Shown piece by piece: positions 20,688 to 48,529 of a stretch of 57,378 bases of DNA; positions within the stretch are counted from its first letter, which is position 1; each line of letters opens with the position of its first letter. The stretch comes from Cyclobacteriaceae bacterium (GTDB taxonomy: Bacteria; Bacteroidota; Bacteroidia; Cytophagales; Cyclobacteriaceae): NCBI GenBank assembly GCA_947458475.1, contig CANGZP010000006.1:1-57378 (forward strand), given 5' to 3'. Under the pieces are notes generated by a model. It saw nothing but the letters and a program-made list of their open reading frames with translations, had not been told where the DNA came from and did not search any database. The translations under genes and the position numbers were made by a program.

Positions 20688-20730
20688 GCTCCCCCTCTTG
20701 GGCTCGAACCAAGGACCCCATGATTAACAG
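20688..20730 (-). repeat. Left attachment site: displaced tRNA-Asn 3' half
   Basis: Reads, on the minus strand, from the anticodon loop CTGTTAA through TCATG, the T arm CTTGG-TTCGAGC-CCAAG and the acceptor strand AGGGGGA-GC. It is identical to 48455-48497 except at two positions that pair with each other in the T stem. The exact shared core is GGACCCCATGATTAACAG (20713-20730 and 48480-48497). The 5' half of the tRNA is absent here, so this copy is not a functional tRNA. Confidence 0.93.
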
Positions 20731-20893: not shown

Positions 20894-20911
20894 AAGACCC
20901 TTTCGGGCCTT
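20894..20911 (-). terminator. Integrase-gene terminator overlapping its stop codon
   Basis: On the minus strand AAGGCCC-GAAA-GGGTCTT followed by TTTTTT; the stem starts at the integrase stop codon (20910-20912). Confidence 0.7.
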
Positions 20912-22133
20912 ATATTTTTGGAAGTAAATCATTCACTTGATGGAGATGTTCTTGGTCAAATGAATCCAAATAATTCCTCGTGACAGCAGTACTTGTATGT
21001 CCCAACATCTCAGCAATTACTTCAATAGATGCACCAGATTTTTTAAGAGAAGTCGCATAGGCATCTCGTGTGACTTTGGTAGTCAATTTAACAGATAAAC
21101 CAAGCCGCTCACCCAGCTTCACCAAATGGGAGTTCAGGTTCTTACCTACCTTCATCCTCTTGTTCAACACAGTTTTTTCAAATGGATTATCCCTTAAGAA
21201 TCCAAGCACATATTCACTGTCCCTGTCCCCTACCAAGTCCAAATACTTTTTCAAACTATCCCCTATCGGTATTTGAACCAGTTGAGGATTACCTCTGGTA
21301 GTATTCTTTGTTTTTTCTCGACGAATGGCAAAAGAATTACCCACTTGGTCTGACCATTTCATTTTAATCAAATCCTTCAAATTGATTCCATTGCAATAAA
21401 ACTGGAATGCCCAAAGGTTCCGAGCAACCTCCTCTTCCTCACTCAAAAAGTCTTTACAGGAAAGAATTCTAAGGATTTCATCACGCTTCAATGTGGTTTT
21501 TATCTTTTTAACTTCAGGGATCACATACCTGTATCGACCAAAAGGATAAACATATCCTTCAGGAAGCCTCCCATTATCTCTTTGCTCGTTAATAACCGCC
21601 CTCAAGTGTCGTAAGTAAATGGCAACAGTAGCCGTCAAGACCCCTCCATGATTTTGGATATACCAAGATTCGAATTCCCGTAAGAAACTAGGGGTGATTT
21701 CCTGAATCTTAAGGTTTGGTCGAAATCTTAGCAAGGAATTTTTTGCCGTTTTATATGTTGAAGCCGTGTTCTTTGAACCCAATTCACCCGTACGTTTGAT
21801 TACATCATCAAATAAGTCTCCCACAGACAATTCATGCTTCCGCTTGAACACTTGTTTTGAAAATAAAGCCTCCTTGAAGGTTTGGTAGTTGAAAGGTTTG
21901 ATTTGTTTCTCAATGTCTAACGCTCGCTCCAACACCTTTTCCGCCGAAACTCGGTGCTCCAACAATGGACCACTTGGATTCTTTTTGAAGATGGAATCGT
22001 ATTGATTTGTGGTGTAGTCCGTATTCAAAGAAATGAATCGAACCACATTGTATTCAGTCACCTTCAGTTTCAGGGGATACTTCCCATTTTTCTTCTGGGT
22101 CCTTTTATCAAGGGTAATTTCAAACCGTACCAT
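20910..22133 (-). CDS. int: Tyrosine recombinase (integrase) of the element
   Basis: 407 residues with an N-terminal arm-type DNA-binding region (1-95), a SAM-like core-binding domain (about 103-200) and a catalytic domain (215-400). Recognisable active-site positions: Lys274/Lys276 in the beta hairpin (RREKTKNTT), Arg356 in KVTRDAYATSL, His379 in MLGHTSTAV and the nucleophile Tyr388 in RNYLD. At the usual first Arg (RGxxxxD) the sequence has Asn248 (CNGINLKDL), and the HxxR His is Lys353. Loss of the first Arg is known from the CTnDOT integrase. It lies 180 nt from the left tRNA-Asn attachment site, and is therefore the likely enzyme that integrated the element there. Confidence 0.95.
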   Translation of the reverse strand: MVRFEITLDKRTQKKNGKYPLKLKVTEYNVVRFISLNTDYTTNQYDSIFKKNPSGPLLEHRVSAEKVLERALDIEKQIKPFNYQTFKEALFSKQVFKRKHELSVGDLFDDVIKRTGELGSKNTASTYKTAKNSLLRFRPNLKIQEITPSFLREFESWYIQNHGGVLTATVAIYLRHLRAVINEQRDNGRLPEGYVYPFGRYRYVIPEVKKIKTTLKRDEILRILSCKDFLSEEEEVARNLWAFQFYCNGINLKDLIKMKWSDQVGNSFAIRREKTKNTTRGNPQLVQIPIGDSLKKYLDLVGDRDSEYVLGFLRDNPFEKTVLNKRMKVGKNLNSHLVKLGERLGLSVKLTTKVTRDAYATSLKKSGASIEVIAEMLGHTSTAVTRNYLDSFDQEHLHQVNDLLPKI

Positions 22134-25290: not shown

Positions 25291-25599
25291 AGTTTTTCGT
25301 TTTGTTGTGAACAAAGCTAGTAACAACAAAAATGTTATGCAAATTTATTTCACAACATTTTTTAAAAAATATTCATCTTTTTTCAAAAACCCTCCAAAAC
25401 CTCTAAAAACGAAGGTTTAGTAATAAAAAAAAATTAAAAAAACTAAGTTTCTAATTCAATCAACCCAATACTACGCCTATTGCGGTTGAAAGAAGTCCAA
25501 CCATATCCCCTTGTTCGCCCTTTTTCTTTGGGAATCATTGAGTGAATGAACGGTGGTTAATGGTTGAACTACCTTGCGATTTACATGAAGAAATCAAAT

Positions 25600-28077
25600 T
25601 CAATAGATGAATTGGTCTGTAATCCTCAGAGGAAAGTTGGAATAAAGTTCAACCGTTGCTGATGTTCTTAAGGTTCTTGCTCTACCAACGGCCTGAATCA
25701 AGTCAGCCTCAATTAGTGCCAATTGGATTTCACGTAGTTCTTCATTGTTGAAACAGTAGAACTTGAAGCTGAACCCATTAAATTCTATTTTCTGATAACT
25801 CATGGAGGTGTCCGATGTCTTGAACTCCACCCCAAGGACTTTGGCGACCATCAGATACTCCACGTTGCTGTGGTGAGGAGTCCCCACTACCGTGATGTCC
25901 TGTCCAGCCAAACTATCATACCCAGAACAGTTCCCGAAATAAATGTCTTCTACCGCGTTGGTAAATTGGTGTGTGAATGACTTAAAAGTAATTACCTTTT
26001 TATCGCCAACCTCTTTACTGATCTGCGTCACATATCGGTTAAGTGTATTTCTTGAACTTGACCTTTTGGTGTATTGGATCACTTTCCCTTTTTGTTCCAC
26101 CTCACCAACATCAAAAACCTCAACCTGGTCGCCTAATAAACGACTATATATAAAAGGACTTACTGTGGCCGATAGGATAATGATTTTCTTGTCTTTGGGC
26201 AACTCTTTTTTTATCACATAGTGGATCAGATCGGCATCCATCCAGTCTTTTACAAAATATGAACTAGAAAAAAATCCAAATAGATTGGAATCCACTTGAT
26301 AGGTTTCTGATACTTTTTTAATCATCTCATCCAAATTTAGGATTAGAACTGGTGATGTAATAATTTCTGACTGGTTCGCATTACGCAAAAGATTAATCAC
26401 ATTGGTTAAATCTTTTTGGTTTTTTTGGAGTGTTATCTCCAATCGGATTAGATCAGATATTCTTATTTTTTTTATCTGAACAAGACTATTCAGTGGGTCT
26501 TCATCAAAAATCAGGGTGTCATGATTGAATTGGCTATATAGGGCCCTTGAGTGAGTAGTGACCACTGATTCGGTACATTCTTGACTGATTTCCACCTGAT
26601 TGATGTAGCTCTGCGCTAACTGTCTATCTTCATCATTGACTTTAAAGTGGTTATTATTCGATACGATGTCATATATGATCCTAACTGCCTTCTTTGGGAG
26701 TCCAATTGAGTAGTAGTAATCAATCATCCGGTTTATTCGAGCATCCTTAAAAATGACTGGATCAGGACTTGTCTTACAATCAATAGTCATTCTTTCTTTG
26801 ACTTCATTCTTTAACGAATTAGTTGGTAAGGCAATTGTGCAGCCGGTAACTGATGTAATCAATTTAGTTTTTCCGATTGCCGTAGGTAGTTTAAAAAGAT
26901 GGATTCTATTCGAAATCGAAGTGTTGGTTATTACCTTTTGAAATTCATTTTTTAATTTATTCTCTGCATCAACCAAATTGATTTTTTTAGCTTCTGAGAT
27001 AATTTGAATTTTTCCACGCTGTTCCTTTACTTCCCCAATTAAATCATGAAGGTCACTATCTTCTTGATAAAGTGAAAAAGTATGAATTGGTTGAGGTGGA
27101 TAGTTGACGATGTTCAAATAGGGGAGTATGTTGAAATTGTTTTCGGTGTATTGAGTCATGCCCTGTTCATTGAACTTGGTCATCGTTTCCTTCATCATTT
27201 TCCTCCCCCCTTTCACATTGATAAGGTTGGTGGCCAACCCGAACAACTGATCATGGTGGAGCCATTCACCTTTAAAAAATTGATCAAGAATCTTAACCCT
27301 AGACCTAGCCATAGTCCAGTCAATTTTCACCTGTTCCTCGCCCTCACGGACTAGTGTGCCGGAACTTGGAGAAATAGAGGAACTTCTATACTTAATATAT
27401 AGAATTGTCTTTTTTTCTCCCAGATTATCTTCTAGTTCACCCACCTCAACACTACATCCTTGTAAGGGGGCAGTAATCAATCTGGTTCTCCCCTTATCGA
27501 AAGTGATTTGAGTGATTGATAAAAATTCAAATAATTTCACTGTACTTACTGGCTGATAACTAAGAATCTCAGGAGATGTGCCACCAAAGAAGAATCGGGC
27601 TAAACTGAAGCATTTAGAATCGGCTTCAGGAAAGGTTTTTTTCATCCCATTAAAAATGATTTTTTGAATACCCGGGTCTACTATTTCCGAGTCTAAAAAG
27701 ATTACTACACGAAACTTGAGTAGATTATCTGAAGATGAGAAAGTCCGGTACAACAACTGTGGAGTAATATTGTGATCTACGAATCTTTGAATTACGTCCT
27801 CTGGTGAAATCTTTAATTTTTCATTATCGAAGTCCAATCCTATAACAGATTGTCTTTGCCATCCTTGGATAGACGGTGATCCATTAAAAATACCTCCTGA
27901 CCATGTGTAACTATAAGGCCGGTCAACTATTGTAGCTACTTCATTAATTGTTAATCCAGTAACTAAATTCAGTTTTTTGGAAATCTCCCCGATGGACTTA
28001 TCGGTCTTGGGTGGTTTAGTTTTTTGTGGTGTTGGGTCAATGGTGATGTAATACTTTTTTTGTTCATGGTTACTCAT
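25600..28077 (-). CDS. Primase-like (AEP-type) domain fused to an SF2-type helicase, likely element replication protein
   Basis: 825 residues from ATG 28077 (MSNHEQKKYY). Residues about 70-175 carry a primase-like pattern: VIGLDFDNE (Asp82, Asp84), KFRVVIFLD and SLARFFFGG, as in AEP/PrimPol and BT4734-type domains. The C-terminal part is a helicase: Walker A LPTAIGKTK at 397-405, an acidic Walker B FDED at 524-527, SATVS (motif III-like) and QAVGRARTLR (motif VI). Primase-helicase fusions start replication of satellites and plasmids, so this is the likely replication protein. The domain assignment is by motif only; the N-terminal part could be mis-assigned. It sits between the methylase block and the resolvase. 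Confidence 0.75.
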   Translation of the reverse strand: MSNHEQKKYYITIDPTPQKTKPPKTDKSIGEISKKLNLVTGLTINEVATIVDRPYSYTWSGGIFNGSPSIQGWQRQSVIGLDFDNEKLKISPEDVIQRFVDHNITPQLLYRTFSSSDNLLKFRVVIFLDSEIVDPGIQKIIFNGMKKTFPEADSKCFSLARFFFGGTSPEILSYQPVSTVKLFEFLSITQITFDKGRTRLITAPLQGCSVEVGELEDNLGEKKTILYIKYRSSSISPSSGTLVREGEEQVKIDWTMARSRVKILDQFFKGEWLHHDQLFGLATNLINVKGGRKMMKETMTKFNEQGMTQYTENNFNILPYLNIVNYPPQPIHTFSLYQEDSDLHDLIGEVKEQRGKIQIISEAKKINLVDAENKLKNEFQKVITNTSISNRIHLFKLPTAIGKTKLITSVTGCTIALPTNSLKNEVKERMTIDCKTSPDPVIFKDARINRMIDYYYSIGLPKKAVRIIYDIVSNNNHFKVNDEDRQLAQSYINQVEISQECTESVVTTHSRALYSQFNHDTLIFDEDPLNSLVQIKKIRISDLIRLEITLQKNQKDLTNVINLLRNANQSEIITSPVLILNLDEMIKKVSETYQVDSNLFGFFSSSYFVKDWMDADLIHYVIKKELPKDKKIIILSATVSPFIYSRLLGDQVEVFDVGEVEQKGKVIQYTKRSSSRNTLNRYVTQISKEVGDKKVITFKSFTHQFTNAVEDIYFGNCSGYDSLAGQDITVVGTPHHSNVEYLMVAKVLGVEFKTSDTSMSYQKIEFNGFSFKFYCFNNEELREIQLALIEADLIQAVGRARTLRTSATVELYSNFPLRITDQFIY

Positions 28078-28104
28078 ATAAATAAAGAGTCCCCATCCTT
28101 TCAT

Positions 28105-28489: not shown

Positions 28490-29116
28490 TCAAAAAGGAC
28501 ATGAATCGATGAGGTTATGTTTTGTAGCGATTTTTTTAGCCTTTAGGACAGTGCTGGTTGATGTGTTCAGATGATTGGAGATTTCTCTAATTGACCTTCC
28601 TTTATTTAGGAGCCTTATTATTTTTTGGGTTACCTCTTTTTCGATAAATTGTTTCTCTGTCTGATTGGTACCAATTGGGCGACCTAATTTTCCCCCACGT
28701 TGAACATATACCATCCTTCCGGTAGAAGTTCTCGTTTTTATATTTTCAAGCTCAAGACTATAAAGACCGGCTAAGGTTGCTGTCAGTATCCCCCAAATTA
28801 AGTTACGTTGATTTTGGGGGCGTGATTGAATACCTAAATTTCTTACAGTAACATTAACTTCATATTTTTCTAGCCACTCAAGGGTACCAATTACATCTCC
28901 CATCGAACGTCCAAGACGACTGAGTTCTTCAACTACCAAATCTTTAACTATTCCATCTTCAATCATTTTAATAAGTTTACCTGCTTCCGGCCGGTCTTTG
29001 AACCTAAGAGTTCCGCTGACTTTATCCAATAATGTCAAGTCGTAATAATCGGTATCTGCTTCAAACCTGTTCCCGGTCTGTTGAAGAGTAGATACTCTAT
29101 TATACTTTACCTTCAT
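28490..29116 (-). CDS. Serine recombinase (resolvase/invertase family)
   Basis: 208 residues. The catalytic Ser is residue 9 in YNRVSTLQQ; the resolvase domain continues with DKVSGTLRFKDRPEAGKLIKMIEDG, the VVEELSRLGRSMGDVIGTLEWL helix, and then a C-terminal HTH (SIREISNHLNTSTSTVLKAKK). Small resolvases of this size resolve cointegrates or invert DNA at a res site. Palindromic boxes directly upstream (29123-29230) are candidate binding sites. Its presence next to a replication gene suggests dimer resolution of an excised, replicating form of the element. Confidence 0.92.
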   Translation of the reverse strand: MKVKYNRVSTLQQTGNRFEADTDYYDLTLLDKVSGTLRFKDRPEAGKLIKMIEDGIVKDLVVEELSRLGRSMGDVIGTLEWLEKYEVNVTVRNLGIQSRPQNQRNLIWGILTATLAGLYSLELENIKTRTSTGRMVYVQRGGKLGRPIGTNQTEKQFIEKEVTQKIIRLLNKGRSIREISNHLNTSTSTVLKAKKIATKHNLIDSCPF

Positions 29117-31550: not shown

Positions 31551-31637
31551 ATGGGAAAGAAACTTGTCTTGAGCTTGTGCACCTTGCTAATGTGCTTACA
31601 CCTGTACTTTGATAAATCATTCTCAATTTTGGTTTAA
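31551..31637 (+). pseudogene. Truncated start of a secreted-protein gene
   Basis: ATG 31551 opens 28 codons starting MGKKLVLSLCTLLMCLHLYF, which has the look of a signal peptide, and then runs into the 3' end of the McrC gene on the other strand and stops. I read it as the first part of a gene cut off when the restriction-modification operon was inserted. It is short and could be chance. Confidence 0.4.
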
Positions 31638-32972
31638 GATATTTTCAACTTGTGCTTTATGATAAACATCTGTGCCACTTAAATCAAAAGGAATTACTTC
31701 TAATATTAAATCTCCTTCGTAAATAAAATTGTCAAGTTTATTCGTAAAGTTCAGATTTGATGGGTAAAGCAAAACAAGATTTGGATTCTCATTTGTGTCA
31801 TCATTGTAGGCATATCTTTTTCCATAAGCATATAATTGATACATGTCTGCCGATGAAATATTGTAGTTGCCTCTAAAAGAATTTTCATCAAGCAACTTCC
31901 ATTTCGTGTCAATTATTTTCTTCTTCTGCTGTTCTACTTTGTAAAGCACAATGTCTGGTCGTAAAGAAAACCTAGTTTCTCCTTTGTGGCTATCAACAAG
32001 AAAATATGATTTATCTTGAATTTTTATTCGGTAACCGTCAGAATATTTTTTAAACAAATAAGCAATATAATCTTCAAACACTTTCTCCATTGGGAAAAGT
32101 ATTGCCATGTTAAGGTTGTCGCCTTTAAAATTTGTAAATGATTTATTTGTCAAAAATATTTCTGACCATAACAAAAGCATTTTATATCTTGAAAGAAGTC
32201 GGCTTGGTTGTCGAACCCTTAACAAATCGTTTTTGATGTTTACCGATGAAGTTACTCCTTCAAGATGTGAGAGAACTTTGTTTATTGAATAGTAATTACT
32301 GTAACTGCTTGTCAGTTTCATCAACTTTAATAATGTAGATTTTACCAATCTGTTCGCAGGGATGTCAGGTGAATACTCGGAATACTCACAATAAAATTTT
32401 GACTTGTCGGCAAAGTTGATTTTTAGATTCTCATTGATTTTGAGTTTTCCTTTTAAGAAAGTAATATTTTCTTCATTCGAAACATAATCGGATTTCACTC
32501 CGTAATTAAAAACTGTTTCTGCTTCTTGAATATAGGACTTGATAAACACTTCAAGAATTGGAAAAGCATTTTGTGATTCAATGTGGGCTTTGCTAATATT
32601 TACGAAAGGAGAGTTTTTCAAATGCTTTAGCATTTTCAAAAAAATCATTTTCGTTTCATCTAGGACCTCCTTAACTTTGGTTTTACCTGTATGAATTTTT
32701 GGAAGTATTTCTAAATGCAAACCTTCTTTCGTTTCAATAACACCAACATAATTCTTTACCTTGATTTGTTTTCTTTTCCCTTTAGTAAATAAAGCAAAAG
32801 GTTTGTCACTGTCTTTTGAATCGTCTTGATTTTGCGAAATGTATTTATAAAAGGAGTTAAAGTGAGTCTCCGGCAAGTATAGTTCTTCCAATGTGCTTAC
32901 CGCATTAGTATCATAATCGCCTGCTGAACGGATTACACCATACTCACAAATATGAAATGCTTCTTTCTTCAA
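31623..32972 (-). CDS. mcrC: McrC-like nuclease subunit (LlaJI-type R2)
   Basis: 449 residues. McrC features: an N-terminal KQIKVKNYVGVIETKEGLHLEILPKI, the central helical FVNISKAHIESQNAFPILEVFIKSYI, and a C-terminal PD-(D/E)XK-type site RPDIVLYKVEQQKKKIIDTKWK (Asp, then Asp-x-Lys). In McrBC and LlaJI systems this protein gives the nuclease activity when bound by the GTPase. The start overlaps the end of McrB by 4 nt. Last gene of the four-gene operon; its 3' end abuts a truncated plus-strand reading frame. Confidence 0.92.
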   Translation of the reverse strand: MKKEAFHICEYGVIRSAGDYDTNAVSTLEELYLPETHFNSFYKYISQNQDDSKDSDKPFALFTKGKRKQIKVKNYVGVIETKEGLHLEILPKIHTGKTKVKEVLDETKMIFLKMLKHLKNSPFVNISKAHIESQNAFPILEVFIKSYIQEAETVFNYGVKSDYVSNEENITFLKGKLKINENLKINFADKSKFYCEYSEYSPDIPANRLVKSTLLKLMKLTSSYSNYYSINKVLSHLEGVTSSVNIKNDLLRVRQPSRLLSRYKMLLLWSEIFLTNKSFTNFKGDNLNMAILFPMEKVFEDYIAYLFKKYSDGYRIKIQDKSYFLVDSHKGETRFSLRPDIVLYKVEQQKKKIIDTKWKLLDENSFRGNYNISSADMYQLYAYGKRYAYNDDTNENPNLVLLYPSNLNFTNKLDNFIYEGDLILEVIPFDLSGTDVYHKAQVENILNQN

Positions 32973-34813
32973 TTTCTATTGGAAATGGATTTATAAATAA
33001 AAGTGAACATTTCGATTGGAATATCTTTATAGTTTTCTTTAACAAGGTTTGGATTGACTTCATAAATAATCTTGTCGTCAAAATCTTCAGTATCTCCAAA
33101 AAGAGCTTTTGCAGTATTTGCCTTCTTCTCTTGAACTATTTTCTGTTCTTCTGCTTTTTTCCAGATATTATTATCACCTAGAACTTGTTGAATCTTTTCA
33201 TAGTTACCAAAAAAGTATTCCTCAAGCAATGGTAAGATTTTGTTTCTAAATACAGCACATAAATCATTTTTTGTTTTAATATCAAGGAAATATGAATGAC
33301 CCAATAAATGGTCTTTATCTAGCAGAAATTCTATTCTACTATTCATAACTTGAAGTAAATTTTGTAAATTGATCCCATCAACATCTTCTGATAATAGAGT
33401 AGAATCTGCAGTATATTCAAAAAAAGTAAATCTTCTACGTAATGCGGTATCAATTAAAGCAATTGATCGGTCTGCAGAATTCATTGTTCCAACAATGTAA
33501 ATATTTTTTGGAACTCCAAACATTTCATCACCGGCAGCTCCAGAGTAGGTGAGTTTTGTTCTTAATTCTTCATTTGCACCAATTCTTTTTGTGTCTTCAA
33601 TTAATGTGATTAACTCACCAAATATTTTTGAAATATTTCCACGATTAATCTCATCTATAATTAAAACGTAATTTTTATTAGAATTATCCTTTTCTTCAGT
33701 TTTTGGTTTGTAATGATCTGTTATATGTTTAGCAATAGCAGTTGTGTATGGTTTCCAATCTTCTAAAATTCCGCTTTCCATAAAATTTAGAATGACCTTT
33801 TTTGTAATTGTCATTTCTGTGGCAGCTGATGTTTGAGGAATTGCTACGCAGCTTCCGTTTGAGTTTATTTTTACAGAAAAAGGCTTATTCCTTATTAATG
33901 TTGTAAGCTCTAATTGGTTCCCTGATTCAATCACATCTGAGGTGAATGTACTAAAAATAGAATCAAAGTCTTTAATTGATTTTCTATCATTAGCTTTTAA
34001 ACATAATTTCTTAAAAATACCGTCTTCAATGTTGTATTCCACATTGATTCCATTTACACTTGGTTTTATACCTTCAACAAATTCCTCATAAGAATATGAC
34101 TGATGAAAGGTAACGAGCTGAATTTGTCCCTCTCTAACTAACTCATCAAATTCATCTTTAGCCGCTTTTCTGTTTGCTTTATTGGCTTTCTGTGAATCAA
34201 TTAATTCGTTCAAATCTTTGCCCGTTACGATTGAAAGAGCGTGATTTATAGCATTATGAGTTTTGCCTGTCCCAGGTGGACCATATAATATCTGGTTGAG
34301 AGGTAATTGTTTATTAGTTATTCTTATTTTTGTTGAAACTGACTCATATGATGTTTTTGAATTATGGATCTTTACATTAATTTGCTTTAGTCCAGGCCAA
34401 ATATCAGAGGCTAATTTTTTTAATTGAGACTCTTCATTAATGTAACATTTTTTAGGCAAATAATTTCCTGATGCATCCTTCCAAATATAGAAAACACCTT
34501 GAATTCCATATTCATTAATAACATCATTTGCTGAATTAGTGTAGGTAATTGAACTTTCATCGTTTTTCAAACAAACACCAATAACAACTTTTGGTCTTTT
34601 ATTGCTTTGAGTTCTAAATTGAACTTGTATTTGTTGTAACCTCACATTTGCATTTGCTGCTTTACTAATTGTTACAACATATATTTCATCAGGTGTTAGA
34701 TTGAATGCCTCTGCAATTATATTTCCTACTTCATTATATTTAGTCGTGCTGTTGCTTGATAAATCAGGAATTCTTGCTAATGCATCTGAAATTTGTTTTT
34801 TATAATTATTCAT
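32969..34813 (-). CDS. mcrB: McrB-like GTPase/AAA+ subunit (LlaJI-type R1)
   Basis: 614 residues. An N-terminal DNA-binding-type domain (about 1-160) is followed by the McrB AAA+ module: Walker A GPPGTGKT at 178-185, the QLVTFHQSYSYEEFVEGI block, Walker B VLIIDEINRGNISKIFGEL, and the McrB hallmark VGTMNSADRSIALIDTALRRRFTF. McrB uses GTP to translocate DNA and activates McrC. The N-terminal domain decides which DNA is bound; here it does not look like the methyl-flipping McrB domain, consistent with a type II-like system that senses unmodified sites. Overlaps both neighbours by 4 nt. Confidence 0.94.
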   Translation of the reverse strand: MNNYKKQISDALARIPDLSSNSTTKYNEVGNIIAEAFNLTPDEIYVVTISKAANANVRLQQIQVQFRTQSNKRPKVVIGVCLKNDESSITYTNSANDVINEYGIQGVFYIWKDASGNYLPKKCYINEESQLKKLASDIWPGLKQINVKIHNSKTSYESVSTKIRITNKQLPLNQILYGPPGTGKTHNAINHALSIVTGKDLNELIDSQKANKANRKAAKDEFDELVREGQIQLVTFHQSYSYEEFVEGIKPSVNGINVEYNIEDGIFKKLCLKANDRKSIKDFDSIFSTFTSDVIESGNQLELTTLIRNKPFSVKINSNGSCVAIPQTSAATEMTITKKVILNFMESGILEDWKPYTTAIAKHITDHYKPKTEEKDNSNKNYVLIIDEINRGNISKIFGELITLIEDTKRIGANEELRTKLTYSGAAGDEMFGVPKNIYIVGTMNSADRSIALIDTALRRRFTFFEYTADSTLLSEDVDGINLQNLLQVMNSRIEFLLDKDHLLGHSYFLDIKTKNDLCAVFRNKILPLLEEYFFGNYEKIQQVLGDNNIWKKAEEQKIVQEKKANTAKALFGDTEDFDDKIIYEVNPNLVKENYKDIPIEMFTFIYKSISNRN

Positions 34814-35988
34814 ACATTTTTAAGTATGGATTCATTCAAAAGTTGTTTTTGGAGTGCCTCTAAAAAACCAGAAGGAAATACTTTAGCTCCCTCTTTTGCT
34901 CTTGAAATATAGCCAGCTAACGCTCTATTTGAAAGCGGTTTTATTGGATGTTTAAGAAATTCTCCAATGGGTATATGATTATCGCTTAAAGGGTGTGTGG
35001 TTGTTTTTGCAACAAATCTTTTACCAGAGCCACCAAACCCTGCTGAGGGTACCGTTTTTAAATTAGACCACGATGTAAAATCAAAATTACTACAGTCAGG
35101 ATTTTTGTATAAATTAAGTCCTATCCATTCGGCAGCAGGCACAGAAACAGCGTTGCCAATCATTTTCCAACGAATGCCTTCCTTAATATTAGCTCCATTT
35201 TCATACACATTTGTCCAATTAACCGGAAAGCCTTGCAACCTCTCTGCATCGATTATGTTTGGTGTATATGCGATTTGGTTTATTGTATCAAAAATCGCAG
35301 GTGGAGATGGAATGCCAAGTGCAGACCCCCCTTTAATTGGAGGTATTGAATTATTTGCCCACCCAACACCGCGTTTTCCTTCAGTCCAATAAAAACCATA
35401 TTGGTGCCCAAGTTCCATATTAGTCATGGAATCATTAGCTAAATTGACTTGATTATCATTAAATAAAATATTTTCAGGGTTCACATCACCTTTGGAGCCC
35501 AATATAAATACTCTTAATCTACGCTGAGGCAGGCCAAAACCTCTTGTATCTACAAGTCTATAAGCCCATTTATATCCACAACTTTCAAATAAATCCAAAA
35601 CCTCAAATAATGCCTTTCCCTTATTAAGCCGCAAAAGATTATGTACGTTTTCTAGTAAAACAAGCTCAGGCTTGGATTTCTTGATTAACTGGAATAAATT
35701 AATGACTAACCCTGATCTATGACCCTCTAATCCTTTTCTTGTCCCAGCCAAACTAATATCTTGACATGGAAAACCTGCGGTTATTAAATCAACTTTTGGT
35801 AATGTTTTTAATGTTAATATATCCTCATGCCTTTCAATACCAGGAAAATGTTTATTTAAAACCATGTTGGCGTATTTATCTATCTCGCACATAAAAGTTG
35901 TTTTATGACCACACTTTTCCATGCCAAGTTCAATTCCTCCTATACCTGAAAAGATAGAAGCTATTTTTAAATTTCTTTTTGTTTGCAT
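34810..35988 (-). CDS. DNA cytosine-5 methyltransferase (second methylase of LlaJI-like operon)
   Basis: 392 residues. C5-methylase motifs in order: FSGIGGIELG (I), the catalytic GFPCQDISLAG with Cys75 (IV), LLENV (VI), GLPQRRLRVFILG (VIII) and a C-terminal IGNAVSVPAAEWIG (X). The target-recognition region lies between VIII and X. In LlaJI two methylases each modify one strand of an asymmetric site; a second C5 enzyme directly upstream fits that model. It overlaps the start of McrB by 4 nt and shares one base with the stop/start of the first methylase. Confidence 0.95.
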   Translation of the reverse strand: MQTKRNLKIASIFSGIGGIELGMEKCGHKTTFMCEIDKYANMVLNKHFPGIERHEDILTLKTLPKVDLITAGFPCQDISLAGTRKGLEGHRSGLVINLFQLIKKSKPELVLLENVHNLLRLNKGKALFEVLDLFESCGYKWAYRLVDTRGFGLPQRRLRVFILGSKGDVNPENILFNDNQVNLANDSMTNMELGHQYGFYWTEGKRGVGWANNSIPPIKGGSALGIPSPPAIFDTINQIAYTPNIIDAERLQGFPVNWTNVYENGANIKEGIRWKMIGNAVSVPAAEWIGLNLYKNPDCSNFDFTSWSNLKTVPSAGFGGSGKRFVAKTTTHPLSDNHIPIGEFLKHPIKPLSNRALAGYISRAKEGAKVFPSGFLEALQKQLLNESILKNV

Positions 35989-37469
35989 TATTTTAGAAGG
36001 TGCATAGTGAGTATATAGCCAAGTTTTGGAGGTACAGCATTACCAATTACAGTTTGTATTAAAACTCGGTTATTTGAATTAAAGTTGTAAAAGTCAGGAA
36101 AAAATTGGATGCGTGCTGCCTCATGTGGTGTAATTGTTCTTCTTTTTGTGGGATGAATAAATCTACCACGGCCTGGTGTTCCAAAACCTGTTGTTATTGT
36201 TGGAGCATATTTATCCATTCTTAGCCTACCATATACTGAATTATAAGAGTGCTTTTTTAGTCTATGACAATCTGGCCTCTCAGAGTTGGGAAGGTCGTAT
36301 ATTTGATTGTCAAACAAATAGCCTATTCTCTTTATATTTTCTTCACTGTATTTTGGAGAGGTGTCAAATACTATATCTTCAGTATTTATATTTTCTAAAT
36401 CAGAAATAGACCAAAAAAGGTTCCTAGGATTTACTCTAAAATCTTCTACACATTGATGAACATTTGGTTCTATTTCTAGCGAACCCAATGTTATACTACG
36501 TTTTCTATTTTGAGGCACCCCTATATCAAGACAATTAACTACGCCAGTAGATATTTTGTAACCTAAGTTTTTTAATATTTGCCATGTTCTTTGAGCCACT
36601 TGTCCTTTATCATGTAGAACCCCAGGTACATTTTCAATAATTACATTTTTTGGTCTTATCACTTCACAGAATCTAGCCATTTTTAGGTATAATTCATTTT
36701 TTGGATCTTCTCTCCTTGTGTGATTATTTAAATCTGAATTACCTTGGCAAGGCGGACCGCCGATTAATAAATCAATTTTACCTAATTTTTTTTTTATTTT
36801 TTCTTCATTGTTGCTGAGAGGCATTCCACAGGCGCCATCAAAAAGATCTTCGATTGGTACGGCTAAAGTTTCTGCTTTTGGAAAATTAATCTTGTATATC
36901 TGTAATATTTTGTCATCTATATCATTTGCAAGCACAGTTTGATGAACTAGTCCAAGAGCTCTGCAGGCTTCTTCTGCCCCAACTGATAATCCTCCACAAC
37001 CTGCAAACAGATCGACGACTTTAACAACACCTCTTTCAAAAAGTCGTTCTGGTTGTTTTTTGCTTAATAACCAACTTCTATCAAACATGTCGGCAATTTC
37101 CTCATTACCTTTTCTGTCAATCAACCTCATTTTTGATTCAATTTCTTCGCCATGTCGTGTAAAGACTGTTCTAATTATTTGCTTATTCTTTATGCTGTAT
37201 TTTTCTGTTAATTCTTTAGTACTTGTATTTATTTGTGAGCTATTTCCAACAAATATTTCTTTAACTTTTGCATTCATGTTTTTTGATGATTGAATTAAAT
37301 CTTTAATATCCACGTCAAGAAGATTAGCTATTTGATTGAGTATTTCTAGCCTTGGCTGTTGCCTATTTTGAACATAACTATTCACCATATTGTAACTCTT
37401 TCCCAATTTCTCTGCCAGCCAAACTTGCTTAATCCCCTTTCTTTCAAGCACTTCCTTAATCCTATTCAT
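35988..37469 (-). CDS. XRE-type helix-turn-helix fused to a DNA cytosine-5 methyltransferase (first methylase)
   Basis: 493 residues. The first 60 are a Cro/CI-type HTH (KQVWLAEKLGKSYNMVNSYVQNRQQPRLEILNQIANLLDVDI). A linker follows, then a full C5-methylase: FAGCGG (155-160), GGPPCQGNS with Cys241, IIENVPG, GVPQNRKRSITLGSL and a C-terminal VIGNAVPPKLGY. Methylases with an HTH often repress their own operon until the host is methylated; M1 of LlaJI does so. Candidate operators lie at 37519-37533 upstream. First gene of the operon. Confidence 0.95.
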   Translation of the reverse strand: MNRIKEVLERKGIKQVWLAEKLGKSYNMVNSYVQNRQQPRLEILNQIANLLDVDIKDLIQSSKNMNAKVKEIFVGNSSQINTSTKELTEKYSIKNKQIIRTVFTRHGEEIESKMRLIDRKGNEEIADMFDRSWLLSKKQPERLFERGVVKVVDLFAGCGGLSVGAEEACRALGLVHQTVLANDIDDKILQIYKINFPKAETLAVPIEDLFDGACGMPLSNNEEKIKKKLGKIDLLIGGPPCQGNSDLNNHTRREDPKNELYLKMARFCEVIRPKNVIIENVPGVLHDKGQVAQRTWQILKNLGYKISTGVVNCLDIGVPQNRKRSITLGSLEIEPNVHQCVEDFRVNPRNLFWSISDLENINTEDIVFDTSPKYSEENIKRIGYLFDNQIYDLPNSERPDCHRLKKHSYNSVYGRLRMDKYAPTITTGFGTPGRGRFIHPTKRRTITPHEAARIQFFPDFYNFNSNNRVLIQTVIGNAVPPKLGYILTMHLLK

Positions 37470-42435: not shown

Positions 42436-42606
42436 ATGAAAAGTAAGTTAAATCTGGATGTGGCCCTTTCAGTACCTACTTTTTCAAACAATCAAAAATA
42501 TCATTACAACACAAAAGTGGGGACGCGAGGTAGAATGTTCAATCAACCAAGTCACCCGCCATTGCTCCAAACGCCTGTTATCGGCCTGGTTTTTGTCCGT
42601 CGTTAA
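42436..42606 (+). pseudogene. Possible truncated gene start, running into cassette-like sequence
   Basis: ATG 42436 lies just behind the stop of the previous gene and opens MKSKLNLDVALSVPTFS; after about 15 codons the composition changes and the frame continues into sequence shared with the 3' side of the helicase module. I read it as a gene cut off at about 42480. The evidence is weak on its own; the parallel case at 31551 supports it. Confidence 0.35.
42480..42602. repeat. Cassette-boundary-like sequence
   Basis: Contains CATTACAACACAAAAGTGGGG, TGTTCAATCAACC, CACCCGCCATTGCTCCAAACG and CCTGTTATCGGCCTGG; on the minus strand TAACAGGCGTTTGGAGCAATGGCGGGTG. From memory, similar sequence recurs downstream of unrelated accessory genes in many Bacteroidota, somewhat like integron attC sites. 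I cannot verify this here. It sits directly after the coiled-coil gene. Confidence 0.35.
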
Positions 42607-43151
42607 GTCCATAATTTAATAACTGCTAATAAACTCAAAATCAAAGTCAGTCCGCCAATTGCCCAAATTAATAATTTTACTATCTTATTTTCAGCTTCAA
42701 TTACTTGTTTAAGTTCCTTCGTGTTTTTACCAAACTCAATTTCAAAAATCTGCTTAATTTGACTTCTTTCACTTTCAATTAATTTTTTGATTTCGGATTT
42801 ATTGTCGTCAAGTTTTATTTTTAATGTACTTTCAAGGTCTTTGTAAAACTCTTTATTTTCTTTTCTGATTAAGTCAGTTTTTTCTTCAACAAGTTTTGCA
42901 AGCTCTGCCTTGTTTTGTTTGTTGGCGTTCTCAATTTCCGTCAAACTTTTGGCAATTTTTTCCTTTTGGGCTTTTTGTAGTTCGTTAATTTTATCAAGCG
43001 TCTTACTATTTTCTTCAAATTGCTTAATTATAGAATTATAAGTTTCAGTTAGTTCCTGTAGCTTCTTAAAAGCACCTGAAACATCTTTAAGTTGTTCAAC
43101 TTCCTTGTTGAAGTCTTCAAGTGTTTGATTAAATTTCTGCAAGTTGCTCAT
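42603..43151 (-). CDS. Coiled-coil protein with C-terminal membrane anchor
   Basis: 182 residues. A nearly continuous coiled coil spans about 5-150 (heptads such as LQKFNQTLEDFNKEVEQLKDV, ENSKTLDKINELQKAQKEKIAKSL, KNKAELAKLVEEKTDLIRKENKEF). The last 25 residues are one membrane helix (IVKLLIWAIGGLTLILSLLAVIKLW). No catalytic domain is present. The gene overlaps the end of the large helicase gene by 23 nt, so the two are co-translated. A tail-anchored coiled coil coupled to a DNA helicase suggests a membrane-tethered partner or effector. Confidence 0.85.
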   Translation of the reverse strand: MSNLQKFNQTLEDFNKEVEQLKDVSGAFKKLQELTETYNSIIKQFEENSKTLDKINELQKAQKEKIAKSLTEIENANKQNKAELAKLVEEKTDLIRKENKEFYKDLESTLKIKLDDNKSEIKKLIESERSQIKQIFEIEFGKNTKELKQVIEAENKIVKLLIWAIGGLTLILSLLAVIKLWT

Positions 43152-46100
43152 ATAATTTCTTATTAAGTTTTTTTAATTCCTTTAGTTTCTGCGCATAAAC
43201 ATCATTAAGCAAATATGCCAAATCATAATATTCTGCAAGTTCTTCCAATATTTCAGGATAGTATTTTGAAATAGATTGGCTTAAATCCATTTTTTGTTCT
43301 TCGGTCAAATGTTTTCCTAATACTTTTAATCGTGTCAAAAAATCTATTTCCTGTTCTTGGTTAAAAGTTTCTTTAACCCTAGACAACGCACTTTCAAAGC
43401 GTTCTTTTCCATCACTATCTTCATATTCATTCAAAGCTAAACGGATAAAACCGCTAACAAAATTCAGTCCTATACTGTTACGATAACTTTCCAAAAATCG
43501 GCTAACCCTGTCTTTTAGTTTTTCAAATTCAATTTTGTTTGAAAACTGATTATCCGTAGTTAGAACTTCAAACCACTTTTCGTAATCTTTTGGATTTTCC
43601 GCAATGTGTTGAAGAATAAAAGTTGTTTCGGAAAAAATGAAGTAACTATCAAGGCGTTGCTTAAAACTCTCACTATCTTCAAACTCTGAACACCAATCAG
43701 ACAGTGTTTTAAGCGATTGTTTCCGGCTATATGCAATGTTTTCAAAAGTCCAATTCAATAAATACCAAATGGCTTTTTCTAAAACTGAATTCTGCTTAAC
43801 TTCTTGTAATTCCTTTGATACGTCTGTATTAGGTTCGTATTTAGATATATAGTCAGAAACACTTTTTACTATATGCTTTTCTTCAATAGTCTTAAACTGA
43901 ACTTCAAAATGGTCAATGAAATTTGTTGTCCAATCTGAAACAATGCCTAATAGACTTAAACGATAAATTGCTTTTTGTAAAACGTCACTGCTTATTTTTA
44001 ATTTGGAGTATGCGTCATTCCAAAAAATCCTAGCTTGAGTTTTTTCTCGAAAAAAATGTCTGATTACACCTGAAATAATTTCAAAATCCTTTTCTATGTC
44101 ATTCTGTCCCTGAACAAAAAGGAAAACCTGTTTAAAAATATCTTTACCTCCAAAGCCCACTTCATCGCTAATAGCTTTCATTTCAGCAAATGTAGTGTCC
44201 TTGCGGAAAAGCCGGTCTACTCTTTCTTGATCGTACGTTTCAGGAGAATGTAAAACGAAGCATTTCCCTATTTTACTTTTGTTTTCATTTTTTCTTTTAT
44301 CCCAACGTCCAGCTCTACCTGCTTCTTGGTAAAGTGCTTCTACTGAACTTGGCAATCCGTAATGAAAAGTGTAAAAAATGTTTTGTTTGTCAATGCCCAT
44401 TCCAAAGGCTTTTGTTGCAACTAAAAGTTGATATTTGTTTACTTTGAAGTCTTTTTGAACTTTGATTTTATACTTGTTGAATTCATCTTTGTTCATTACT
44501 GGTTCTGTTCCAATTTTTCGCCCTGTTTTTTCATCATAAACATCTCTTTTAGGAATGTCACCTGAAAACCAACTCACTTTATTTTGAAAAAGAGTATTCA
44601 AAGTATTTGAAACCTGATAACATCCAAATGCTCCATTTACATTAGGTGTAAATATTAAACCTGCTTTGTCTGTTGTTTCAACAAAACTTTCCGTGTCTTT
44701 TAGCTCATTAATAAGACTTTTGAGTTTGTCTATTTTGTTTCCTTTATCGTTAATTACTTCAAATCTTAATTCTTTACGGCTATAATCTAAAAGTGATTTT
44801 ATGTTTTCATCTTCTAGGCGTTGTTTTTGTCTTGCAAATTCAATTTTTATATCTGTTAAAACTTTAACGGAAGCTGTTGCCGTTAAACCAATAAATTTAA
44901 TTTTCCCTTCTCCGTTTTCATCTTTGGGGCTTAGCTTGTCAACCGTTTTGGCTAAATTCAAATATGAAGATCTAAAATCGTGTCCCCATTCTGAGAGACA
45001 ATGTACTTCGTCAACAACGGCATAGGCAATAGAAAAATTAGCCACAATAGCACTTATCTTCTCTCTGAAACTCGGAATTTGAAATTTTTCTGGAGAAATC
45101 CACACAAACAAATATCTTCCTTGCTCAAAGTTTTTTTCTATTTCTCTTTTTTCATCTGCTTCTAAATCGCTTGTAATGAAGCTAACATTTGTTATGTAGG
45201 TTTTAACCAAATTGTCGTTTTGGTCATACATTAATGATTTGATTGGGCAAACCACAAAATTTATACTTGGTTGCAACAAGCAAGGAAGTTGATAACATAT
45301 TGATTTTCCGCCACCTGTGGGCAAAAGTCCAATTGTGTCTTTTCGGTTGAGTGAATTTGAAATGATTGGAAATTGACCTTCACGAAAACTTGGCTTGTCA
45401 AAAATGTTGTCAAGAAAGAACTCTAAAGTTGTTTTTTCTTCATCCGTTACGTTGTAATTGATTGGTTCGGTTGTGCTAACTCTGAAGTAGTTTTTATCTT
45501 TTTCAATGTCAAAATAGTCTGTGCGAACAAAAATTACATCATCACTGATTTTGTTTTCATCCGTGTAGCGTTTGAATAGTGAAAAGTCAATGTTTATTGC
45601 TTTGGTTGTAGGCTGAAAATTGGCTTTCTCGTTCGTTATTGTAAGGTTGAGAATTGGTTTTTTGAGTTCTTGCTTGTTTTTAAGTTGCCAAAGTTTATCA
45701 ATCCAAATGAGTAAATCATTTATTGCCAACTCTGCAAAATCCGGCAAATTTTCGTGAGCCAAAATATTGAAATTCCATTCATCTTCAAATGTCAAATACT
45801 TGTGAGTAAGTAACTCAATGAGCAAGACTTGAAAACGGATTATTGCCGTAGGTAATAATTTCGTCTTAATTTCTTCTTCGCTTATCTGATTTTCTTCTAT
45901 TTTATTACAAGCGCTTTTATAGAAATTCAGAAGTTTTTCGTAGCGTTCAAGGTGTTTTAAAATCGTTTCAACTTTCGCACTGTAAGAGCCGTTTTGCAGT
46001 TCTCTTGTTGTAATTCTTATAGTCGTAATTCCTTTGCCCGATAAGTAATTATCTCTTTTGCTGTCGGAAACCCTTGTCACTTCATCAAGTTTGTGTTGTT

Positions 46101-46560
46101 GTCCGTCAATTTCAATTACAAGTTTGGCTTGAGGCAAATAGAAGTCAACTTGTTGGTTGATAAAATTTTTATCGTCTTCTCCTGTAATTTCATTTATTTC
46201 AATTTCGGGAATGAGTAATGATTGAATAAATGAAAATTCGCCAAACTCGTTTGGTAAAATGTTCTCGAAAAAATCTTTTGCGGGGTAATAGTTATGTTCT
46301 CTGTCGCCCTTTATAGTGTCGTTCCAAACAGGTCTCTGTTTTGTCGCAAACAAAAAGCGTTCTTTAAAGCTGTCAAGTTTATGAATTTCACCTAATTGAG
46401 ATTGTAAGTATTTTGAAAGAGTAGTAGGAAAGCCACGTTGCAAAATGTTTTTCGTTACATACAAAATAGGCAACAAGTCAGCATTTGTCTGATTTGACAC
46501 AAGATTCTGAATTACAAAATTCGGATTTGTATATGTATAATTTGCCGTGTATTTCTTCAT
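43129..46560 (-). CDS. DUF559-like nuclease fused to a RecQ-type SF2 helicase
   Basis: 1143 residues. An N-terminal PD-(D/E)XK domain of the DUF559/Vsr type covers about 85-215: QQVDFYLPQAKLVIEIDGQQH (Asp139, Glu150, Asp152, His156), then DSKRDNYLSGKGITTIRIT. The helicase follows: Walker A LLPTGGGKSICYQLPC (413-420), DEVH (517-520) with CLSEWGHDFR, GLTATAS, AFGMGIDKQNI and QEAGRAGRWDKR, all RecQ-like. The C-terminal 330 residues are helical and unknown; no HRDC domain is seen. The nuclease-helicase fusion, AT-rich codon use, location in a mobile element and coupling to a membrane protein all point to phage defence, not housekeeping repair. Confidence 0.92.
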   Translation of the reverse strand: MKKYTANYTYTNPNFVIQNLVSNQTNADLLPILYVTKNILQRGFPTTLSKYLQSQLGEIHKLDSFKERFLFATKQRPVWNDTIKGDREHNYYPAKDFFENILPNEFGEFSFIQSLLIPEIEINEITGEDDKNFINQQVDFYLPQAKLVIEIDGQQHKLDEVTRVSDSKRDNYLSGKGITTIRITTRELQNGSYSAKVETILKHLERYEKLLNFYKSACNKIEENQISEEEIKTKLLPTAIIRFQVLLIELLTHKYLTFEDEWNFNILAHENLPDFAELAINDLLIWIDKLWQLKNKQELKKPILNLTITNEKANFQPTTKAINIDFSLFKRYTDENKISDDVIFVRTDYFDIEKDKNYFRVSTTEPINYNVTDEEKTTLEFFLDNIFDKPSFREGQFPIISNSLNRKDTIGLLPTGGGKSICYQLPCLLQPSINFVVCPIKSLMYDQNDNLVKTYITNVSFITSDLEADEKREIEKNFEQGRYLFVWISPEKFQIPSFREKISAIVANFSIAYAVVDEVHCLSEWGHDFRSSYLNLAKTVDKLSPKDENGEGKIKFIGLTATASVKVLTDIKIEFARQKQRLEDENIKSLLDYSRKELRFEVINDKGNKIDKLKSLINELKDTESFVETTDKAGLIFTPNVNGAFGCYQVSNTLNTLFQNKVSWFSGDIPKRDVYDEKTGRKIGTEPVMNKDEFNKYKIKVQKDFKVNKYQLLVATKAFGMGIDKQNIFYTFHYGLPSSVEALYQEAGRAGRWDKRKNENKSKIGKCFVLHSPETYDQERVDRLFRKDTTFAEMKAISDEVGFGGKDIFKQVFLFVQGQNDIEKDFEIISGVIRHFFREKTQARIFWNDAYSKLKISSDVLQKAIYRLSLLGIVSDWTTNFIDHFEVQFKTIEEKHIVKSVSDYISKYEPNTDVSKELQEVKQNSVLEKAIWYLLNWTFENIAYSRKQSLKTLSDWCSEFEDSESFKQRLDSYFIFSETTFILQHIAENPKDYEKWFEVLTTDNQFSNKIEFEKLKDRVSRFLESYRNSIGLNFVSGFIRLALNEYEDSDGKERFESALSRVKETFNQEQEIDFLTRLKVLGKHLTEEQKMDLSQSISKYYPEILEELAEYYDLAYLLNDVYAQKLKELKKLNKKLYEQLAEI

Positions 46561-46971: not shown

Positions 46972-47334
46972 TTAGTTTTCAAGAAGTGCATAAAGGAAAA
47001 CTAGAGCCATAATTATTAAAAAAATATACCCAAAGATTTTTTGAGCTTCTTCACGATCTTGATGTTTTTGAAATTCTTTTAAAGCTTTCTGATCTTCCTC
47101 TGCTTCCCTTTTCCTTTTTCTTTCTGCATAGAATTTTTTCAGCTCAATTAACTCATCACTATCTAAAACCTCTCGAAAGTCTTCAAGCCCTAATAAATAT
47201 TTTTCGTAAGAAATTTTCCCATCAGCATATCTTAGATACCAATTGTATTTTCTGTTCCTCTGTCGCCTTTCATCAGGATGCATATTGTAATATGATCCCA
47301 TATTCGGTTCAAAATCATCAATATCCTCATGCAT
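46972..47334 (-). CDS. Small tail-anchored hypothetical protein
   Basis: 120 residues: an acidic N-terminus (MHEDIDDFEPNMGSYYNM), a segment resembling a short helical domain (RKYNWYLRYADGKISYEKYLLGLEDFREVLDSDEL), a Lys/Glu-rich coiled coil (FYAERKRKREAEEDQKALKEFQKHQDREEA), and a C-terminal membrane helix IFGYIFLIIMALVFLYALL. No known family. It is 57 nt downstream of the GNAT gene on the same strand. Confidence 0.65.
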   Translation of the reverse strand: MHEDIDDFEPNMGSYYNMHPDERRQRNRKYNWYLRYADGKISYEKYLLGLEDFREVLDSDELIELKKFYAERKRKREAEEDQKALKEFQKHQDREEAQKIFGYIFLIIMALVFLYALLEN

Positions 47335-47391: not shown

Positions 47392-47970
47392 TTACTGCTT
47401 CGTACGAACCATAAACTTGAACATTTTACCATCTCCTGTATCTTCAACTAATGACATACTACATTTTTTTAAAACCTCCATACTCGCAATATTTTCTTTG
47501 TCTACAAAAGCATAAATAGTTGAAACACCCATTTCTTGAAGGTAAGCCAAAGTGTTATAAACTGCAGCAGTCATGATCCCTTTGTTTCTTGCTTTTTCAA
47601 AAACCCAAAAGTCTATTGACCATTCGCCAATTTCCTCATCTCTATCCTTAAACTTTAATTTTGGAGAGTTGCATGCAACATAACCAATTGGAATATTATT
47701 TTCTTTTAAGACTACGGAAAATAAAATTCCACTTTTTAAAATAAACCTATCTATGAATTTTAAAAGTACCTTATGTGCTTCCTTTTCATTTTTAACGAAT
47801 ACTCCCGGTAAATTTCTTTCAACCTCGGAATCAGAAGAATTCCTTAGAAAATTTTTAGCTTCTAAGTCAAGTTTATCCAAGATAAGACCTCGAAGAGCTG
47901 TTCCTCCCATGTCAATTCTGGGAACCCCTTCCCAAATTTCAAAGTTGCATTTATATTTTTCAGAGTACAT
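47392..47970 (-). CDS. GNAT family N-acetyltransferase
   Basis: 192 residues with RimJ/RimL-like layout. The acetyl-CoA binding part is IGEWSIDFWVFEKARNKGIMTAAVYNTLAYLQEM (motif A variant: R-N-K-G-I-M-T), and the final ENIASMEVLKKCSMSLVED is the motif-B helix typical of RimJ-like enzymes. Substrates in the family include protein N-termini, antibiotics and small amines; not predictable here. It is the last gene before the right end of the element and could be cargo. Confidence 0.9.
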   Translation of the reverse strand: MYSEKYKCNFEIWEGVPRIDMGGTALRGLILDKLDLEAKNFLRNSSDSEVERNLPGVFVKNEKEAHKVLLKFIDRFILKSGILFSVVLKENNIPIGYVACNSPKLKFKDRDEEIGEWSIDFWVFEKARNKGIMTAAVYNTLAYLQEMGVSTIYAFVDKENIASMEVLKKCSMSLVEDTGDGKMFKFMVRTKQ

Positions 47971-48454: not shown

Positions 48455-48455
48455 G

Positions 48456-48529
48456 CTCCCCCTCCTGGGCTCGAACCAGGGACCCCATGATTAACAGTCA
48501 TGTGCTCTAACCAGCTGAGCTAAGGAGGA
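48456..48529 (-). tRNA. tRNA-Asn (anticodon GTT)
   Basis: 74 nt folding as a full cloverleaf: acceptor TCCTCCT/AGGGGGA with one T-G pair, D arm GCTC-AGCTGGTTA-GAGC, anticodon arm CATGA-CTGTTAA-TCATG with GTT, variable loop GGGTC, T arm CCTGG-TTCGAGC-CCAGG and discriminator G. The CCA end is not encoded. The element's integration restored the 3' half from the anticodon loop on, and the original half now lies at 20688-20730. Transcribed from the promoter at 48583-48614, which lies on the chromosomal side. Confidence 0.98.

Follow-up and report, generated by a model that had tools for sequence, protein, structure and literature searches.

Helicase-nuclease immunity is already known. ZorA of the Zorya system is a multi-span, MotA-like membrane protein that has a long coiled coil and is linked to nucleic-acid enzymes; the CoCoNuTs are of the McrBC type, with predicted RNA targeting, and are not known to contain a RecQ helicase. 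In Hachiman (HamAB), according to the accessible sections of its description (PMC12278908), the nuclease HamA (DUF1837) is separate from the Ski2-like HamB, and Hna, as far as the available excerpt goes (PMC13381803), is a single-effector system with a C-terminal nuclease. RqlH carries a phosphoribosyltransferase (PRTase) domain at residues 509-690, at its C-terminus (PMC4670107, accessible part). The present study concerns two overlapping genes of a Cyclobacteriaceae bacterium (assembly GCA_947458475.1, contig CANGZP010000006.1, positions 1 to 57,378; this whole stretch of 57,378 nucleotides is called the window). One encodes a nuclease fused to a RecQ-like helicase and the other a small coiled coil with a membrane tail, referred to below as the partner. 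From its sequence features and surroundings, the pair looks like an undescribed bacterial defence system.

The gene pair and its conservation

The features of the pair are listed below (ORF, open reading frame; AF2, AlphaFold2).

43129..46560, minus strand: nuclease-RecQ-like helicase gene, 1143 residues, ATG start (ORF; Pfam DUF559, DEAD and Helicase_C above cut-offs)
42603..43151, minus strand: partner gene, 182-residue coiled coil with C-terminal membrane segment, ATG start (ORF; conserved as neighbour)
43129..43151, minus strand: overlap of the helicase and partner genes, 23 nt (ORF coordinates)
45949..46152, minus strand: DUF559 / Vsr-like nuclease domain, residues 137-204 (Pfam)
44854..45372, minus strand: RecA-like domain 1 of the helicase (DEAD), residues 397-569, Walker A K419 (Pfam; motif positions)
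44302..44469, minus strand: Helicase_C, residues 698-753 (Pfam)
43132..44295, minus strand: family-specific C-terminal region, residues 756-1143 (AF2 model; family profile)
42618..42674, minus strand: partner membrane segment, residues 160-178 of 182 (Kyte-Doolittle, 19-residue window)

A preliminary description of this DNA had given the same coordinates, lengths and 23-nt overlap for the two ORFs, all of which were confirmed on the minus strand. Its fusion of a nuclease with a RecQ helicase was borne out by the three domains, which all pass the Pfam gathering cut-offs, and its coiled coil with a C-terminal anchor by a single hydrophobic segment and by the heptad test of the soluble part (z = 2.5). 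The window copy of the partner reaches no Pfam cut-off, has no NCBIfam match and shows only weak coiled-coil matches in PADLOC. The same overlap of -23 nt was found in ten relatives (L051-L059 and L066).

The pairing of the two genes was examined in other loci. Relatives were gathered by helicase similarity alone from plasmids, relatives of the genome, named species genomes (the best 80 of the matches listed), viral contigs and an even sample of the phylum. After removal of the exact duplicates L081, L122 and L169, 102 non-redundant family loci remained, the window included; the helicases of two same-genus genomes are identical to those of Algoriphagus L081 and L122, so that the window's genus is probably Algoriphagus. 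Of these loci, 93 were judged. The nine others run into a contig end (L060, L107 and L177) or into a contig end or an insertion (L103), contain Ns (L117), carry a frameshift (L110) or an insertion (L105), have the helicase ORF split (L080) or are fragmentary (L069). The partner of each locus was taken as the longest ORF of at least 90 residues starting -120 to +250 nt from the helicase stop. This downstream ORF has a membrane tail in 84 of the 93 judged loci, exactly one segment being present in 83, although near-copies were left in (e.g. L037/L038, L170/L171, L093/L094 and L088/L097), so that the counts are not independent. It starts no more than 30 nt from the helicase stop in 88/93, and in 77 of the 84 membrane-tailed partners the segment is followed by at most eight residues. 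The median partner length is 202 residues in the judged loci. In the phylum sample taken by itself, 17 of the 20 judgeable genomes with the helicase possess the membrane-tailed neighbour.

As background, a single C-terminal segment occurs in 10 of 658 other mechanically defined ORFs of 100-500 residues from the same loci. Among 20 taxon-matched ordinary RecQ genes (own genome and relatives, with 2.5-3.6 kb downstream), three neighbours were flagged; all three represent one gene of 249-255 residues in three genomes of one family, which we take from its sequence to be the soluble ScpA, and this indicates that the simple hydrophobicity test gives false positives. These 20 stretches replaced 21 earlier ordinary RecQ loci that hold 0-360 nt downstream and are uninformative on the partner, so the label 'none' that some of them carry in the tree is empty. 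Seventeen non-family helicase loci had sufficient DNA downstream (10 RecQ-like from genomes and 7 more distant from viral contigs); among them only L140 was flagged, for a two-segment ORF 162 nt away. Nineteen loci had been set apart as non-family by eye, from core scores and the tree; of the borderline cases, L113 (285 bits) was kept as family and L124 (309 bits, cut at a contig end) was excluded. Chance adjacency of helicase and partner was rejected on the strength of 84/93 loci versus 10/658 in the background and 3/20 for ordinary RecQ. The coupling of helicase and coiled coil proposed earlier was thus upheld, and a helicase found mostly without the coiled coil elsewhere, which the preliminary description had named as counting against it, is the opposite of what was observed.

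The helicase contains the Walker A motif PTGGGKS at residues 414-420, DEVHC at 517-521 and QEAGRAGR at 745-752. Its core matches RecQ in the PDB at E 3.5e-39, and the NCBIfam recQ_fam score of 214.9 falls just under the cut-off of 219.8. The canonical RecQ cut-off of NCBIfam (640) is missed with 233 bits, and no Pfam match to RQC or HRDC of canonical RecQ was found in the window helicase at E 0.1. The region that follows, residues 756-1143, was modelled by AF2 with a predicted local distance difference test (pLDDT) score of 91.5; the secondary structure of the model suggests a winged-helix-like part and then a helical solenoid, and Foldseek gave no significant fold match for it. A profile of this region matches 73 of 77 held-out family loci (three duplicates included), 0/40 control helicases (of which 12 are truncated at the 3' end) and 0/20 further ordinary RecQs. 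Since the C-terminal region and the partner co-occur, this region is the likely docking site of the partner.

The nuclease domain matches DUF559 at residues 137-204 with 35.5 bits (gathering cut-off 20.6), and six of the 15 members of the family alignment A2 match DUF559 at E 0.01. Residues D139, E150, D152, H156 and D166, a putative active site, are invariant in 32/32 aligned motif-bearing N-termini, which had been preselected for the motif, rows without it having been dropped beforehand; the motif is presumably of the type called EDxHD. The AF2 model of the N-terminal region (pLDDT 91) gave weak Foldseek matches to I-Bth0305I, AbaSI, PvuRts1I and Vsr, mixed with unrelated proteins, the best at E 9.5e-3; the proteins that we class as Vsr-like nucleases stand at ranks 1, 2, 4, 7 and 33, none at E < 0.001. 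With a profile built from 32 N-termini, 31 of them from relatives, the nuclease was found in 75 members out of the 96 judged, a count that excludes six N-termini because they are truncated or masked. L115, nuclease-less by profile, retains a remnant of the motif. What stays constant in the family is the helicase together with its C-terminal region, and the partner; the nuclease is dispensable. The earlier picture of a nuclease-helicase coupled to a coiled coil needs changing in this respect, since the nuclease is absent by profile in 21/96 judged members.

Variable modules, distribution and mobile setting

What stands at or before the N-terminus of the helicase varies. A DUF1848 gene lies directly upstream of the helicase in 14 loci (L077, L079, L090, L091, L093, L094, L098, L099, L101, L103-L106 and L110), that is, beside 9/21 nuclease-less versus 5/75 nuclease-bearing members (Fisher p = 0.0002, uncorrected for kinship). 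Its presence beside five nuclease-bearing members indicates that it is not a strict replacement of the nuclease. PADLOC includes a DUF1848 profile whose name marks it as accessory to defence reverse transcriptases. The membrane-tailed partner is kept in 20/20 nuclease-less loci, the insertion-broken L105 being omitted. L047 (5147-10262) and L114, both with helicase N-termini lacking the nuclease by profile, share an upstream gene family that is AlkB-like in L047, and a methyltransferase match was found in one of 15 aligned helicases.

In the enteric plasmid versions L037 and L038, a DprA gene lies upstream, a HAD and PRTase-like extension is fused to the nuclease-helicase, and the partner is tail-anchored. 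In L060, a DprA-related fragment is adjacent; the HAD-PRTase-like extension was judged there from length alone, and the contig end truncates the partner. A GntX-type match (NF008616, 1.5e-7), which stays under its cut-off, lies in the N-terminal extension of the Klebsiella relative. DprA is a single-stranded DNA-binding protein of DNA uptake (PMC9122126, accessible sections).

The helicase was found in 21 of 395 genomes of the even phylum sample (about 5%, own genome included), and a family member in 8 of 72 genomes of the window's genus, again with its own, which is a patchy distribution. Beyond this phylum, relatives turn up in contigs attributed to many others, at least those present among the best 80 named-species matches listed, and 7 of 5426 E. 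coli genomes contain near-identical copies of the enteric type; in two of these, insertion sequences lie under the match. The helicase-core tree (125 rows, unrooted, with long-branch warnings) places ordinary RecQs and the family on opposite sides of a starred branch, and L113 and L124 fall between them. L113, from Thermus, lies near ordinary RecQ on a long branch yet has a membrane-tailed neighbour; it is a possible early branch of the family. The label 'membrane tail' changes 17 times on this unrooted tree versus a shuffled mean of 35.4, unjudged and polybasic rows being counted as other labels. The window helicase groups with Chryseobacterium L051 and two metagenome-assembled genomes. It is 85% identical to L051 and only 46% identical to the best full-length relative in its own genus, which indicates that the gene moved between lineages.

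In the window, the pair sits in a 27.8-kb element inserted in tRNA-Asn (20688-48497), with these features:

20688..20730, plus strand: left att-like repeat, 43-nt copy of the 3' part of tRNA-Asn, 41/43 identical
20910..22133, minus strand: tyrosine integrase, just inside the element (Pfam Phage_integrase, Phage_int_SAM_5)
22698-24500: ParB-N6-methylase fusion
24667-28104: two ORFs of 220 and 834 residues, no Pfam match at E 0.001
28490-29116: resolvase
31623-37469: apparent operon of McrC-like and McrB-like genes and two C5-cytosine methyltransferase genes (ends overlap)
46972-47334: 120-residue transmembrane gene near the pair
47392-47970: GNAT gene near the pair
48455..48497, plus strand: right att-like repeat, inside tRNA-Asn (48455-48529, minus strand)

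The location in a mobile element beside restriction genes, claimed in the preliminary description, is thus supported by the tRNA-Asn repeats, the integrase and the McrBC-like operon. The C5-methyltransferase at 35988-37469 has an N-terminal helix-turn-helix-like match, and the operon presumably resembles LlaJI-type restriction-modification. Of the RNA families searched in the window, only tRNA reaches its gathering score, and three weaker matches were taken as chance. The flanking genes differ among the closest relatives L051, L052 and L053. This indicates that the helicase-partner pair is the travelling unit, and the GNAT and 120-residue transmembrane genes were set aside as parts of the system for the same reason. 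Copies of the family occur on plasmids, in an integrated element and in viral contigs, and among the genes beside relatives on their contigs are restriction genes and genes like those of Zorya, Mokosh and GmrSD. A search of plasmids with the partner only gave no match.

Proposed mechanism and alternative explanations

The preferred reading, to which we give an even chance, is that of a horizontally moved two-gene immune module in which a membrane-tethered helicase delivers DNA-damaging modules to foreign DNA. The large protein of the window would consist of a RecQ-like motor, a winged-helix and helical C-terminal region and an N-terminal Vsr-like DNA nuclease. The tail-anchored coiled coil would bind it, most likely through this C-terminal region, and keep it on the cytoplasmic side of the cell membrane. 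In this position the motor may load on entering or replicating foreign DNA, and its translocation or unwinding would let the nuclease, or another module, cut or damage that DNA. If this is true, the pair offers a direct handle on immunity acting at the membrane, where foreign DNA enters, and the relatives in a few E. coli (7/5426) and in other phyla make it testable in standard laboratory strains.

A wider view, held somewhat more tentatively and put a little below even, is that a constant chassis (RecQ-like motor, own C-terminal region, tail-anchored or polybasic-tailed coiled coil) carrying exchangeable nucleic-acid-attacking modules forms a widespread, undescribed class of membrane-tethered immunity, the tether serving to station the motor at the membrane for incoming DNA. 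The modules exchanged, proposed with the same reserve, may be the Vsr-like nuclease, HAD-PRTase with DprA, the DUF1848 enzyme, and AlkB-like and methyltransferase parts.

Several observations weigh against the tethered immune module. The membrane tail is absent in 9 of the 93 judged loci: five partners end in a polybasic tail instead (L067, L075, L087, L112 and L174), which is perhaps an alternative means of membrane binding, and four have neither (L109, L132, L173 and L179), the downstream ORF of L179 lying 107 nt from the helicase. Heptad periodicity exceeds that of shuffled sequences by more than two standard deviations in 75/93 partners, not in all. Identity to the window partner is only 10-27%, and since the partners share so little sequence, the argument for a common origin is one of position and anatomy. 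No Foldseek match of the N- or C-terminal region was obtained at E 0.001, and the 21/96 judged members without the nuclease imply that the family's function must go beyond cutting. Even the defence-rich surroundings call for caution: in PADLOC at 1e-20, 141 neighbours of relatives match 141 families, against 4 for the 67 genes that neighbour nine non-family RecQ-like genes, a contrast that is indicative only, because the sets differ in taxa and reach (two nearest genes a side for the family, with DUF1848 included; up to seven a side at nine loci, mostly of Planctomycetes, for the control).

As for individual tails, those of L067 and L174 both end in FGRRKG, and that of the L109 partner is aromatic. 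L132 is a phage-like viral contig of 206 kb that encodes the helicase-nuclease and a 152-residue coil-like gene without a membrane tail.

Some of these facts may also be read in other ways. The helicase, with or without its nuclease, might sense aberrant DNA and the tail-anchored coiled coil might be an abortive-infection effector, damaging the membrane so that the cell dies or stalls. This is unlikely in our estimation, even though the partner persists in every judged nuclease-less locus and the transmembrane proteins found in known systems are regarded as suicide effectors (PMC9122126, accessible sections): most large proteins (75/96) possess a conserved nuclease of their own, the five partners with only a polybasic tail are hard to square with pore formation, and a coiled coil of about 200 residues (median 202) better suits a tether. 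Only slightly less probable is that the anchor keeps a toxic sensor of genome integrity off the nucleoid, or autoinhibited, until infection sets it free, whereupon the cell's own DNA is degraded. Helicase and nuclease activities are coupled under restraint until infection in Hachiman and Hna (PMC12278908 and PMC13381803, in the parts accessible), and translational coupling through the 23-nt overlap would keep both proteins in step; against this, there is no sign of a release mechanism. Moreover, the helicase-first order is unlike that of most operons of this kind, in which the antitoxin comes first.

The occurrence of copies on plasmids, in the integrated element and in viral contigs would also suit a helicase serving replication or transfer of a mobile element at the membrane, or DNA repair, rather than immunity. 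The restriction, Zorya-, Mokosh- and GmrSD-like neighbours of relatives, the patchy presence (21/395 in the phylum sample, 8/72 in the genus) and the differing flanks in L051, L052 and L053 make such a housekeeping role improbable. By far the least probable explanation is that the window helicase is DpdF of the 7-deazapurine (Dpd) restriction system. The PADLOC DpdF profile PDLC02868 does match it at E 6.8e-102 over residues 384-1071, and 15/15 members of alignment A2 match too. Membership in Dpd was nevertheless rejected, since the NCBIfam DpdF score is 131.1 versus a cut-off of 550; the partner matches no Dpd protein, and no other Dpd protein is among the PADLOC matches listed for the nine window proteins covered by that scan, for two methyltransferases the best 25 matches.

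Comparison with known defence systems

No description of the pair was found in Pfam, PADLOC 2023, NCBIfam 2026 or the literature searched; supplements and most subscription papers lie outside this search, so absence from print is unproven. The earlier statement that no named system matches holds for the pair and fails for the helicase, which is caught by the PADLOC DpdF profile. The likeness to DpdF covers the helicase and a large part of the C-terminal region, whereas the window helicase falls far under the NCBIfam cut-off and its partner matches no Dpd protein.

The partner resembles ZorA in combining a coiled coil with a membrane segment, and weak coiled-coil profile matches were obtained; it differs from multi-span ZorA in having one C-terminal segment. 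The CoCoNuTs likewise combine coiled coils with nuclease in a setting of conflict (PMC11090510, accessible sections).

A RecQ-like helicase is shared with RqlHI / PsyrTA and the DprA-PRTase system, to which L037 and L038 add the likeness of DprA and a HAD/PRTase-like extension. The window protein differs in having a nuclease and a membrane-tailed partner; no PRTase was detected in it by Pfam or NCBIfam, and no DprA-like gene is among its neighbours in the window (the coiled coil, the 120-residue transmembrane protein and GNAT). Membership in RqlHI/PsyrTA was rejected for the window copy on these grounds, and these systems were kept as kin of the enteric variant. A paper on an integrative and conjugative element mentions dprA and an accessory recQ together and, in its accessible part, names no partner (PMC4857294).

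Hachiman is likewise a two-gene defence of helicase and nuclease and provides a plausible working model. In contrast to its separate HamA nuclease and Ski2-like helicase, a single polypeptide here joins nuclease and RecQ-like helicase, and the other gene encodes a membrane-tailed coiled coil; neither HamA (DUF1837) nor Ski2-like HamB was matched in the Pfam, PADLOC and NCBIfam scans of the window proteins. Hna resembles the large protein in joining an SF2 helicase and a PD-(D/E)XK nuclease in one chain (PMC13381803, as excerpted), although its nuclease is C-terminal and it acts as a single effector, whereas here the nuclease is N-terminal and a second gene is conserved. Within the sources searched, it is the near-constant membrane-tailed partner, together with the exchangeable modules, that is the new part.

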